15,511 nt of DNA from Gammaproteobacteria bacterium (GTDB lineage: Bacteria > Pseudomonadota > Gammaproteobacteria > HTCC5015). Location: NCBI GenBank assembly GCA_020630145.1, contig JAHDBX010000007.1, forward strand, positions 1 through 15,511. The letters run 5' to 3'. Below are positions 2,268 through 12,783 of this stretch, piece by piece. Below the pieces are notes generated by a model. The model worked only from the letters and a program-made list of their open reading frames with translations, made no database searches and was not told the DNA's origin. A program made the position numbers and the translations under genes. How positions within the stretch are numbered: the first letter of the stretch is position 1; every line of letters begins with the position of its first letter.

Positions 2268-3524
2268 ATGAAAAAAATGTATATAAAAAAATTAATGTTA
2301 AGTGCGGCATTATCTTTTAGTGTGTCGTTGCCTGCTATTGCTAGCGAAGTAGAAGTGTTGCACTTCTGGACCTCAGGTGGGGAAGGTCAAGCGCTTAATG
2401 TACTTAAAGATAATTTAGAAAAAGAAGGCGTGAACTGGAAGGATATGCCTGTTGCAGGTGGTGGCGGTGGTGATGCTATGACGACACTACGCGCACGAGT
2501 AACATCTGGAAATCCACCTTCTGCAGCATTGCTGATGGGCTTTGATTTATTGGACTGGGCAGACCTTGGTGTATTGTCTAACCTTAATAGCTTAGCAGAA
2601 AAAGAAAACTGGGATGCAGTTGTGCCTGATGCAGTAAAGAAATTTACTAAGGTCGATGGGAAATGGATTGCCGCGCCTTTAGCTATGCACTCTATTAATT
2701 GGGTTTGGGCAAATAAAGAAGTATTAGAAAAATCAGGTGTCAATAAAGAACCTAGAACATGGGATGAATTTATTGCTGCGGCTGAAAAAGTAAAAAAAGC
2801 CGGTTACACAGCTTTGGCACATGGTGGCCAAGCTTGGCAGGAAGCTACGGTTTTTGACAGTGTTGTACTGGCAACAGGTGGCGCAGAGTATTACCGTAAA
2901 GCGTTTATTGATTTGGACAGTGATGCATTAGCTTCGCCGACTATGTTGAGAATATTCCAAAGAATGTCTCAATTACGTGGCTTAGTAGATGATAACTTTT
3001 CAGGTCGTGATTGGAATGTTGCATCTAGCATGGTTATCAGTGGTAAGGCTGGATTTCAAATAATGGGTGATTGGGCAAAAGGCGAGTTTGCTAATGCGAA
3101 TAAAGAACCTAATGTTGATTACTTATGTTTCCCTATGCCTGGAACAGCTGGTAGCGTGTCTTTCTTGTCAAATCAGTTCGCTATGTTTGATGCAGGTAAA
3201 GACAAACGTGCGGCGCAATTAAAAATGGCATCGTTAAGTCTAGACCCTAAAGTACAAGTTGAATTCAACTTGTTCAAAGGTGCAGTACCCGCACGTACAG
3301 ATTTGTCTAATGAGAAATTTGATACTTGTGCTAAAAGAGCCTTGCGTGATATTACTTATGCAAATAAAGCCAACACTTTAGTGGGATCTATTGCTCATGG
3401 TCATGCTGTGCCTGCGGCTATTAAGAATGCTTTTTATGATGTGATTACTAATCACTTTAATGGCCAGTTAAGTGATGCTGAGGCAGCCGCTGAAATGATA
3501 GTTGCTGTAAAAGTAAATAAGTAG
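2268..3524 (+). CDS. Periplasmic sugar (glucose-type) ABC transporter solute-binding protein
   Basis: Periplasmic receptor delivering a carbohydrate to an ABC importer (extracellular solute-binding family 1). The N-terminus is a signal peptide: KK-rich start, hydrophobic core at about residues 9-22, and cleavage predicted after AIA at residue 25. The mature start EVEVLHFWTSGGE, then VAGGGGGDAMTTL, SGNPPSAA, ALAHGGQAWQEATVF and YRKAFIDLD are, from memory, very like the Pseudomonas glucose-binding protein (GltB type). At 418 residues it is full length. The start at 2268 is backed by a strong purine-rich ribosome site (GGAGAGAGGA, 2257-2266), the best in the window and consistent with high expression. 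No permease or ATPase gene lies within 10 kb downstream; they would have to be upstream of the window or elsewhere. The ligand may be a monosaccharide, a sugar derivative or a glycoside. Confidence 0.9.
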   Translation: MKKMYIKKLMLSAALSFSVSLPAIASEVEVLHFWTSGGEGQALNVLKDNLEKEGVNWKDMPVAGGGGGDAMTTLRARVTSGNPPSAALLMGFDLLDWADLGVLSNLNSLAEKENWDAVVPDAVKKFTKVDGKWIAAPLAMHSINWVWANKEVLEKSGVNKEPRTWDEFIAAAEKVKKAGYTALAHGGQAWQEATVFDSVVLATGGAEYYRKAFIDLDSDALASPTMLRIFQRMSQLRGLVDDNFSGRDWNVASSMVISGKAGFQIMGDWAKGEFANANKEPNVDYLCFPMPGTAGSVSFLSNQFAMFDAGKDKRAAQLKMASLSLDPKVQVEFNLFKGAVPARTDLSNEKFDTCAKRALRDITYANKANTLVGSIAHGHAVPAAIKNAFYDVITNHFNGQLSDAEAAAEMIVAVKVNK

Positions 3525-10009: not shown

Positions 10010-11452
10010 TTAGACTAAAGAAGAGGCGTATTCCGATAAATCTTCAAGAATGTGCATCTTGCTTTCATCTTCAGCGTATTCCGTTGCGAGATTTTGTAGC
10101 TCTTGTTCAAATTCGTCTAAGGTAATGCTTGCACCACCATCTTTATGCAGTAAACGTGTTTGACGGTAGTCTTCCCAGTCTTGTATTTCTTGCTCAGTTA
10201 ATGTTTGTGGGTAGTTGCGTGCTTTGTAACGGAACAATAAGGTTGTTAAACGCGGGTCGCTAAAATTAGCTTGCAAAGATGCCAGTTCATCGCTACTTGC
10301 ATAACGCACACTGTCACATAAACGTTTGTCTTCATTAGGTATAAAACTGCCATAAAGATTTTGTTCAGCGTCATTAATACCGAGCGGGGCGCTATCAAAA
10401 ACAGCCTGCATTTTTTCTGCTAATCCGGGTATCGCTTTTAACTCTTCGAGGTGCTGTAAGCAGCTATCAATATTGATCTGTGCACGTTCTTGTGCTGCGG
10501 CGTCTAAGGTTTTTAATGGTGCGATAAAGGGTGACTTATTAATGTGTATGCCTTTAAGATGAATACGCTCATTAGGGTCACTCAATTCACTAACCGGTGT
10601 AAATAAACGAGCTTGTATTTCATCGACGGATAATGTGGCTAAAATTTTGGGTGAGTAGCGTAAGTCATACGTAATCACAGCGTTAGCATTCGCTTTGTTA
10701 TAAGCAATTGGCGCAACTAAGCTTGTGCATGCTAACTCGCTGGGTATTTTGCCGCTAACATGGACTAATGGTGATAGCATGTTTTTATTAATAATATCTT
10801 TAACCGTATTTTTATTGCGCAGTGATAATGCGTAATCAAATAATTTGGTTTGCGCAGTTTTTAATTTTTTAGCGATTTCTATCGTGGCAATAACATCGGC
10901 GAGCGCATCGTGAGCATCGCTATGTTCAATGCCGTTAGCTACACTTAATTGCTCTAATTTAAAACTAGGTTTACCTGCCTGTTCGCCGTCTTGGTGCGTA
11001 GGCCAATTGAGGCCTTCAGGCCTAAGAGCGTAAGCCGCACGCATTACATCCAGTAAATCCCAGCGTGAAGAGTTGTTTTGATACTCATGTGCATAGGGGT
11101 CATAGAAGTTGCGAAAAAACATAAAGCGCAGTATTTCACTGTCAAAACGTATACTGTTATAACCCACTACACAGGTTTTGCTTTGGCTGACTTCTTGATG
11201 AATCTGCTTAGCAAACTCCGCTTCAATACTGCCTTTTTCCCAAGCTAGTTGGGGTGTAATACCTGTTATTAGGCAGGCCATTGGCTGTGGCAAAGTGTCA
11301 TTACTGGGTTTGCAGTAAATAACTAGTGGTTCACCAATAATGTTCAGGTCTTCATCTGTTCGTATACCCGCAAACTGACAAGGTTTATCTTTGCTTGGGC
11401 TAACGCCAAAGGTTTCAAAGTCGTACCAATAAAATGTAGGGGTATTTGTCAC
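10010..11452 (-). CDS. sbcB: Exodeoxyribonuclease I (3'-5' ssDNA exonuclease)
   Basis: Degrades single-stranded DNA 3' to 5' in recombination, mismatch repair and replication-fork clean-up. The 480 residues match E. coli ExoI (475) along the whole length. The DEDDh exonuclease residues are all present: D11 and E13 in YDFETFG, D104 in YNSIRFDSE, H181 and D186 in HSDAHDALADV. Further conserved stretches are RWDLLDVMRAAYALRPEG, VHVSGK, HINKSPF and RYKARNYP, spanning the exonuclease, SH3-like and C-terminal helical domains. The start is GTG at 11452; no ATG fits, because YWYDFETFG begins eight codons in. Its ribosome site is poor. Oddly, the 5' leader carries an intrinsic-terminator-like hairpin whose U-tract ends 17 bp before the start, leaving no room for a promoter between them, so expression should require read-through. 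Confidence 0.97.
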   Translation of the reverse strand: MTNTPTFYWYDFETFGVSPSKDKPCQFAGIRTDEDLNIIGEPLVIYCKPSNDTLPQPMACLITGITPQLAWEKGSIEAEFAKQIHQEVSQSKTCVVGYNSIRFDSEILRFMFFRNFYDPYAHEYQNNSSRWDLLDVMRAAYALRPEGLNWPTHQDGEQAGKPSFKLEQLSVANGIEHSDAHDALADVIATIEIAKKLKTAQTKLFDYALSLRNKNTVKDIINKNMLSPLVHVSGKIPSELACTSLVAPIAYNKANANAVITYDLRYSPKILATLSVDEIQARLFTPVSELSDPNERIHLKGIHINKSPFIAPLKTLDAAAQERAQINIDSCLQHLEELKAIPGLAEKMQAVFDSAPLGINDAEQNLYGSFIPNEDKRLCDSVRYASSDELASLQANFSDPRLTTLLFRYKARNYPQTLTEQEIQDWEDYRQTRLLHKDGGASITLDEFEQELQNLATEYAEDESKMHILEDLSEYASSLV

Positions 11453-11469
11453 GTTAGTTCAGCCAGAAT

Positions 11470-11495
11470 AAAAAAGGCTTTATATCATAAAGCCT
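11470..11495 (-). terminator. Intrinsic-terminator-like hairpin just upstream of sbcB
   Basis: On the minus strand a perfect 9-bp stem (AGGCTTTAT / ATAAAGCCT, 11495-11487 with 11483-11475) closes a 3-nt loop (11484-11486) and is followed directly by a U-tract (11474-11470). On the plus strand there is no T-run after the stem, so it would act only on minus-strand transcription. It sits 17 bp before the sbcB GTG. It could end a small RNA transcribed from the intergenic region or serve as an attenuator of sbcB. Three GC pairs per stem make it moderate in strength. Confidence 0.6.
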
Positions 11496-11537
11496 ATACA
11501 GAGGATTGTCGATTTATTGGAGTTTGTGACGTAAAAG

Positions 11538-11584
11538 CGCAGCACCTATATAGCTGAGGGGGAGAGGAGTCTATAGGTGCCGCG
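11538..11584. repeat. Inverted repeat with purine/pyrimidine-skewed loop
   Basis: Arms GCACCTATA (11542-11550) and TATAGGTGC (11572-11580) are perfect complements. After an A/C mismatch the pairing resumes for three outer pairs (CGC 11538-11540 with GCG 11582-11584). The 21-nt interval holds an uninterrupted purine block, GAGGGGGAGAGGAG (11556-11569), which is C/U-rich on the minus strand. The unusual strand asymmetry suggests an exposed loop rather than a simple operator. Confidence 0.65.
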
Positions 11585-11587
11585 TAT

Positions 11588-11624
11588 TTGCTTAATTCTG
11601 TTAGTGTGATGAGTAATTAAGCAA
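11588..11624. repeat. Inverted repeat, 10-bp perfect arms
   Basis: TTGCTTAATT (11588-11597) is the exact reverse complement of AATTAAGCAA (11615-11624), with a 17-nt interval. It starts four bases after the previous inverted repeat and its right arm shares two bases with the next one, forming a tandem of hairpins. Confidence 0.65.
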
Positions 11625-11661
11625 TAACCTAAATCCATTTGAGTTATTTGATTAGGTTATT
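11623..11661. repeat. Inverted repeat, 10-bp perfect arms
   Basis: AATAACCTAA (11623-11632) is the exact reverse complement of TTAGGTTATT (11652-11661), with a 19-nt interval. It is the 5'-most stem of the proposed minus-strand RNA. Confidence 0.65.
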
Positions 11662-11671
11662 AGTAATAGTG

Positions 11672-11680
11672 CATATAGCA
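11672..11680 (-). promoter_or_regulatory. Possible extended -10 promoter for the sbcB leader
   Basis: Minus-strand TGCTATATG matches the extended -10 pattern TGnTATAAT at the TG and at four of six hexamer bases. The hexamer 17 bp further upstream is poor. A start 7 nt downstream would fall near 11665, just before the first hairpin. A second reading is TTGGCA (11686-11681) as -35 with the AT-rich stretch near 11663-11658 as -10. Confidence 0.3.
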
Positions 11681-11724
11681 TGCCAATTTTTTAAGTCGTT
11701 GATTGGCAAAGTATTGTTGTATGG

Positions 11725-11757
11725 TTTTGACAATTGCGTCAAAAAATACCGTCAAAA
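11725..11757. promoter_or_regulatory. Cluster of TTTTGAC/GTCAAAA half-sites
   Basis: TTTTGAC (11725-11731), six bases, GTCAAAA (11738-11744), six bases, GTCAAAA (11751-11757): one inverted pair and one direct pair at identical 6-bp spacing and 13-bp period. This regular layout suggests a regulator binding site in the space between the divergent sbcB and trhO genes. Each half-site also contains TTGAC, a possible -35 element: TTGACA on the plus strand, TTGACG twice on the minus strand. I found no convincing matching -10, and the regulator is unknown. Confidence 0.4.
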
Positions 11758-11825
11758 ACAGCCGAAAAGTCAGGTTTTTACTTAAAAGAGCCATATCTAT
11801 GCCTTTTTATAGGCACTTTTTAAAA

Positions 11826-11831
11826 TATAAT
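11826..11831 (+). promoter_or_regulatory. Candidate -10 element for trhO
   Basis: A perfect TATAAT 47 bp before the ATG at 11878. No good -35 hexamer stands 16-18 bp upstream, where the sequence is T-rich. A small TGCCT/AGGCA stem-loop with a following T-run (11800-11821) lies just upstream and may be a weak plus-strand terminator. Confidence 0.45.
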
Positions 11832-11877
11832 AGCGTCTTTTTACACTGACCAGAATGTTTTGGGGTTATTGACGTTT

Positions 11878-12783
11878 ATGCCTATTGTTGTTGCTGCGCT
11901 TTATAAGTTTGTGCGCTTAGAAGATTATATTGATTTACAAAAACCATTACTGGAAGTTTGCCAAAAATATCAAATTAAAGGCACCTTACTGCTTGCTTTA
12001 GAGGGTATTAATGGCACCGTTGCGGGTAGTCGTGAAAATATGGATCAATTACTGGCTTATTTGAAGTCGAACAGCCGTTTTGAAGGGCTACAGCATAAAG
12101 AGTCATATACAGAAGACATGCCTTTTTTACGCATGAAGGTAAAGTTGAAAAAAGAAATTGTAACAATGGGGGTAGAAGATATTGATCCTACCGTATGTGT
12201 CGGACAATATGTTAAACCTACGGAATGGAATAAGTTGCTTAGTGATCCCGATGTTGTCCTGATTGATACGCGTAATGAGTATGAGTATGAAATTGGTACG
12301 TTTAAAGGTGCAATAAACCCTCATACGGATAGCTTTAGGGAGCTCCCTGAATTTGTAGCGAAAAATCTTGATCCTGCCAAGCATAAAAAAGTGGCTATGT
12401 TTTGTACGGGTGGTATACGTTGTGAAAAATCAACGGCTTATTTAAAGCAGCAAGGCTTTGATGATGTTTACCATTTGCAAGGTGGCATCCTTAAATATTT
12501 GGAAGAAGTACCGGTAGAGGAGAGCTTGTGGCAGGGTGAATGCTTTGTTTTTGATGAACGAGTGGCTGTTGACCATAGCTTAACTAAAGGTAAATATGAT
12601 CAATGCCATGCTTGTCGTTTCCCAATTACACAAGAAGAAAAACAATCAGAACATTATCTACCTGGGGTTGCATGCCCTAGGTGTTATGATAAGACAACAG
12701 CAGAGCAGCGCGAACGTTTTGCCGAGCGTCAAAAACAAATTCAGTTAGCTAAGGAACGTGGGGAAGCCCATTTGGGGAGTTAA
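11878..12783 (+). CDS. trhO: tRNA uridine(34) hydroxylase TrhO (rhodanese-family YceA)
   Basis: Oxygen-dependent hydroxylation of U34 of tRNA to 5-hydroxyuridine, an early step of cmo5U/mcmo5U wobble modification. I choose the ATG at 11878 ([11 protein letters not shown], 301 residues) over an in-frame TTG six codons earlier because homologues begin at this point. Seen: N-terminal acylphosphatase-like domain with [17 protein letters not shown] (34-50), rhodanese domain with [16 protein letters not shown] (130-145), and the active-site loop with C176 in [11 protein letters not shown] (C182 second). A C-terminal zinc-ribbon-like set C243-x2-C246 and C266-x2-C269 (CHAC, CPRC) is followed by a charged tail. 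It is somewhat shorter than E. coli TrhO (350). Transcribed divergently from sbcB, and followed after 56 bp by the SH3 protein gene on the same strand. Confidence 0.94.

Follow-up and report, generated by a model that had tools for sequence, protein, structure and literature searches.

A candidate minus-strand small RNA with an intrinsic terminator in the sbcB/trhO gap of a gammaproteobacterium

Several inverted repeats lie immediately ahead of sbcB in this gammaproteobacterial contig, which raises the question of whether they form a leader that controls the nuclease gene or belong to an RNA of their own. We examined the window, by which we mean the whole 15,511-nt stretch of DNA that was analysed; its contig is one of 306 in a 1.89-Mb draft genome of 73% completeness, and most of the named sbcB relatives agree with a place in the Gammaproteobacteria. 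Given that sbcB lies on the minus strand and trhO on the plus strand, and that the two diverge, the gap between them (11453-11877) is expected to carry the promoters of both. The features of the locus are as follows.

10010-11452, minus: sbcB, exodeoxyribonuclease I (ExoI), GTG start at 11452 (Pfam PF08411 and PF00929, NCBIfam PRK11779)
11878-12783, plus: trhO, tRNA uridine(34) hydroxylase, divergent neighbour of sbcB; longest frame from 11860
11470-11664, minus: core of the structured RNA candidate, from the fold z; several possible 5′ ends (11817, 11706, 11673 and 11652)
11623-11661, minus: hairpin 1, perfect 10-bp stem (arms 11623-11632/11652-11661), 19-nt loop
11588-11624, minus: hairpin 2, perfect 10-bp stem (arms 11588-11597/11615-11624), 17-nt loop, abutting hairpin 1
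11538-11584, minus: hairpin 3, uninterrupted 13-pair stem in the fold (11538-11550/11572-11584), C-rich loop of 21 nt that contains CUCCUCUCCCCCUC
11470-11495, minus: intrinsic terminator, 9-bp stem (arms 11475-11483/11487-11495), 3-nt loop, U-tract
11800-11815, to 11821 with the T-run, plus: terminator-like hairpin of five pairs and a T-run, before trhO

Stems, terminator and fold of the minus strand

An inverted-repeat search and a terminator search confirmed what a sequence-only reading of this DNA had described: the minus strand carries three inverted repeats in a head-to-tail series with a terminator, whose 9-bp stem is followed by a U-tract. The three hairpins combine long stems with large, G-poor loops of 17-21 nt; the inverted repeat of hairpin 3 was recovered with 18-nt arms (11533-11550/11572-11589) that are 83% complementary. 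The terminator stem of 9 bp, three of them GC, with a loop of 3 nt, is followed by TTTTTATTCT, as is characteristic of an intrinsic (Rho-independent) terminator; the hairpin energy is -8.7 kcal/mol. Between the T-run and the sbcB GTG there are 17 nt, exactly the spacing originally reported. Two terminator-like sites were found in 11300-11960, as compared with 0.3 in shuffled sequence, and the one before sbcB was found on the minus strand only. We also observed that outward-facing terminator-like sites border the gap, the plus-strand site before trhO mirroring the minus-strand site before sbcB.

The inverted repeats and the minus-strand fold of the gap exceed chance. In 11465-11670 there are four non-overlapping perfect stems, each 9 bp or longer, whereas only 33 of 1,000 dinucleotide shuffles had one or more such stems and none had two. 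The minus strand of the same interval folds at -45.9 kcal/mol, compared with -26.3 kcal/mol in shuffles (z -5.08; equally good shuffles 0/200), and the three-hairpin core (11530-11664, minus) reaches z -6.69; for the plus strand of 11465-11670 the value is z -1.60, equalled by 12 of 200 shuffles. For the four candidate RNA starts, z is from -4.75 to -6.01. Among 768 windows of 160 nt covering both strands of the whole 15,511-nt sequence (step 40, 40 shuffles per window), 11521-11680 on the minus strand ranks first. When 288 windows of 135 nt were compared, taken from 36 gaps in 177 kb of this genome (the 15,511-nt window and 15 other stretches), minus-strand windows of the sbcB/trhO gap rank second and third, the first being a stretch with a strong terminator hairpin (L078). 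Weaker structure persists upstream of 11665 (z -2.57; equally good shuffles 4/200), which leaves uncertain where the RNA candidate begins. Together, these features give good support to a putative minus-strand RNA whose 3′ end would be at about 11470.

Searches for relatives and known families

A DNA search for relatives of the RNA matched one of 55 related genomes, the source genome itself (up to 14 candidates scored per genome), and a covariance model built from the single sequence gave the same result (1/55). Across 274 class genomes, the model found the source genome and three matches at E 0.16-0.38 (up to 12 candidates scored per genome); in the class genome set, three genomes belong to the same family and none other to the same genus. 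One structure-model match (L082, E 0.11), a stretch between two frames that has a terminator-like hairpin and broken pairs, was taken as chance. A class-wide DNA search gave matches at E 0.1 in 54 genomes out of 369, the source genome included (up to two candidates scored per genome); the other matches, 17-47 nt long and falling at scattered places in the query, were likewise taken as chance. The Rfam scan that the sequence-only reading had proposed as a check (release 15) matched no family over the gathering score in the window; seven weak matches, at E 2.7-9.9, were all below it. 6S RNA is located elsewhere in the genome, no tRNA or tmRNA was found, and a CsrB/RsmZ-like RNA was rejected on the basis of few GGA motifs on either strand (by eye) and the lack of an Rfam match.

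Inverted repeats in RNA are equally dyads in DNA, and this is a single orphan occurrence without relatives, as might be expected if the dyads were operator sites or a degenerate copy of a mobile repeat, lacking any function as RNA. However, in the genome as assembled (73% complete) the element occurs once; the only other matches, which we took as chance, are three pieces of 16-18 nt (E 0.37-0.70). It has no phage or plasmid match at E 0.01, and none of seven pattern stretches was in a viral contig encoding a relative of this SbcB. Moreover, the polarity of the terminator and the bias of the fold favour the minus strand as RNA. We consider a purely DNA-level role unlikely.

Promoter matches and transcription into sbcB

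The sequence-only reading had held that there is no room for a promoter between the U-tract and the GTG, such that sbcB must be transcribed by read-through. This is not supported, since the highest sigma-70-like score in the gap, on either strand, belongs to a site that overlaps the terminator, with its -10 box inside the terminator hairpin. Two promoter candidates bear on the locus.

11484-11512, minus: sigma-70-like promoter candidate for sbcB, TCGACA-17-TATGAT, 10/12 matches, overlapping the terminator; predicted start at about 11477
11713-11742, minus: weak promoter candidate for the RNA, TTGACG-18-AACAAT, start at about 11706, no better than chance

Transcription from TCGACA-17-TATGAT would begin about 25 nt before the GTG. 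Its score, for which the weights were consensus frequencies, was equalled in 10 of 300 shuffles of the entire gap and in 3 of 300 shuffles of the last 90 nt. The match is suggestive rather than proven, because the count of promoter-like sites in the gap shows no excess over shuffles (3 versus 2.1, sd 1.6). The RNA candidate itself has a terminator, while its own promoter is unconvincing. A dyad, TTTTGAC-N6-GTCAAAA at 11728-11747, overlaps the weak minus-strand candidate, and could be an operator. Overall, sbcB seems to have a promoter of its own as judged by this match, so that a link of control between the RNA and sbcB is not supported.

If the hairpins and terminator were instead an attenuated leader acting in cis, regulated read-through would set the level of ExoI. 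The hairpins are on the same strand as sbcB, the terminator is close to the GTG, and we saw no clear Shine-Dalgarno sequence before that GTG (by eye), all of which would suit such a leader; the promoter match, however, is located after the three hairpins. In a leader of this kind, upstream RNA would be expected to hold the 5′ arm of the terminator. We computed pairing for an RNA with an assumed start at 11670, truncated just short of the terminator 3′ arm. In this truncated RNA, GUAUAG pairs with the 5′ end at 0.70-0.96, in a 6-bp helix that favours attenuation in that the last two bases of GUAUAG are the first two of the terminator 5′ arm (paired upstream at 0.86 and 0.96). The remaining seven of the nine 5′-arm bases are hardly paired upstream (0.01-0.25), and in the complete RNA all nine terminator pairs form at 0.77-1.00. 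With two arm bases engaged and seven mostly free, a small competition at the base of the stem is possible, but a fold that removes the terminator is not; no antiterminator fold able to disrupt it was found in pairing computed from 11670.

We also compared other sbcB loci. Forty-four loci were taken and 43 listed, one being the window itself; the 42 other rows include three places twice, some doubtful distant matches and mechanically placed starts, and at least one row (L005) has only about 50 nt of upstream DNA. None of these 42 rows has a terminator-like hairpin that begins 80 nt or less from the sbcB start, and four have one within 130 nt (L007, L039, L041 and L044, of which L039 and L044 are one place). 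Within the flanks examined, trhO adjoins sbcB in two of three family members. At L021, the sbcB/trhO gap of about 75 nt leaves no room for the RNA candidate. At L022, from a family member, a 200-aa frame (2877-3479) separates the two genes; it is on the sbcB strand and immediately precedes sbcB. As the other sbcB loci lack such a terminator near the start, and in view of the gap at L021 and the frame at L022, the element is not a conserved sbcB leader in the loci seen. A literature search, judged by titles and the openings of abstracts, found nothing on control of sbcB by a small RNA, a terminator, attenuation or a promoter.

We conclude that sbcB is probably not controlled by read-through, and regard the attenuated leader as rather improbable. 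The sequence-only reading had seen in this layout an attenuated leader or an sRNA: the stems, fold and terminator leave the sRNA plausible, whereas the promoter match, the lack of an antiterminator and the lack of conservation tell against the leader. The RNA candidate weighs against ExoI being leader-controlled here.

Neighbouring small frames and possible mode of action

Immediately upstream of the hairpins and on the same strand there is an ATG frame of 44 aa (11660-11794, minus), which could make the hairpins and terminator the mRNA end, that is, the 3′ UTR, of a translated small protein gene. Codon choice in this frame exceeds that of 92% of letter-shuffled sequences and of 76% of fragments read out of frame, but it is below that of all 960 gene fragments drawn from 12 genes of the window; as small proteins are difficult to assess in this way, the codon comparison counts as evidence rather than proof. 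Moreover, a word search, insensitive for so short a query, found no homologue, and no Pfam or NCBIfam family scored over the cut-off. The 3′ UTR of such a gene is, like the leader, rather improbable. The 44-aa frame overlaps, on the opposite strand, a 48-aa plus-strand frame (11639-11785).

Least probable, and very much so, is a type I toxin-antitoxin pair in which the 48-aa frame is the toxin and the minus-strand RNA its antisense antidote: the frame has a hydrophobic stretch (by eye), overlaps the minus RNA, is followed after its stop by the terminator-like hairpin at 11800-11815, and has codon choice above that of 92% of letter-shuffled sequences and of 82% of fragments read out of frame, but its start is TTG, its codon choice is at or below 0.2% of the 960 gene fragments, the terminator stem after it has only five pairs, word searches (insensitive for short queries) gave no homologue, no family scored over the cut-off, only the source genome among 274 class genomes matches it, and no known or conserved small hydrophobic family was found for it in the family and class-genome searches.

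We lean towards an independent, lineage-specific intergenic sRNA, transcribed from the minus strand and acting in trans, whose terminator shares its place with sbcB's own promoter. Such an RNA would be about 185-240 nt long (possibly up to 350), with three head-to-tail hairpins, large single-stranded loops and the intrinsic terminator, which would end it before sbcB; sbcB would be transcribed separately, from the promoter whose -10 box lies within the terminator hairpin. We infer that its most likely mode of action is base pairing by way of the loops, perhaps with Hfq. The same genome encodes Hfq: the match, of 76.5 bits (L067, G000:C165:3-155), begins at a contig end, indicating that the gene was probably cut in the assembly. 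The element is probably an ordinary candidate for an orphan sRNA, of a known kind. If it is transcribed, it would be a new orphan sRNA from a little-sampled gammaproteobacterial lineage, in which a terminator and a promoter candidate share one palindrome. We think it highly improbable that the RNA polymerase ending the sRNA occupies the sbcB -10 box, such that expression of the sRNA would shut sbcB by occluding its promoter, with the multi-loop RNA acting elsewhere; if this were true, a terminator-promoter switch would couple the sRNA to the level of ExoI.

We reasoned that the C-rich loop of hairpin 3, to which the target pairing tests were applied, might pair with Shine-Dalgarno sequences. 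Allowing up to three mismatches, the complement of the 16-nt loop matches nowhere else in the genome, as compared with three sites for the backward control. Of 140 mechanically chosen gene starts, 28 carry a Shine-Dalgarno-like motif, versus 8/140 in a control stretch. Duplexes of the loop with these starts have a mean of -6.4 kcal/mol, those of shuffled loops -6.1 (6 of 20 as good) and those of the reversed loop -5.5. The loop pairs with gene starts little better than shuffled loops do, and the anti-Shine-Dalgarno idea is without support; a literature search on C-rich anti-Shine-Dalgarno loops found nothing. An ACUC motif occurs four times in the RNA, a weak signal equalled in 32 of 1,000 shuffles.

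Transcription attenuators, such as trp-type leaders, place hairpins and a terminator ahead of a gene. The RNA candidate is alike in this arrangement, but differs in that its upstream RNA holds only two of the nine arm bases, and in that the gene's promoter match sits at the terminator. A different likeness is to AbcR1 and AbcR2 (alpha-r15) of Sinorhizobium meliloti, whose C-rich seeds are CUCCUCCC, located in a hairpin loop, and UUCCCCUC, which lies between stems (PMC8844928). The hairpin 3 loop CUCCUCUCCCCCUC resembles these two anti-Shine-Dalgarno seeds, and shares with them a C-rich single-stranded seed, here in a loop and with an Hfq gene in the genome; AbcR1 and AbcR2, however, are alphaproteobacterial, and the candidate here has no Rfam match and drew no support from the two target tests. 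A further likeness is to intergenic sRNAs of marine Gammaproteobacteria, for example those of Alcanivorax dieselolei B-5, which were found by RNA-seq, with terminators among the accepted 3′ ends (PMC9788540). Whereas those RNAs come from RNA-seq and ours from sequence alone, the candidate would resemble them in being a free-standing RNA between genes.
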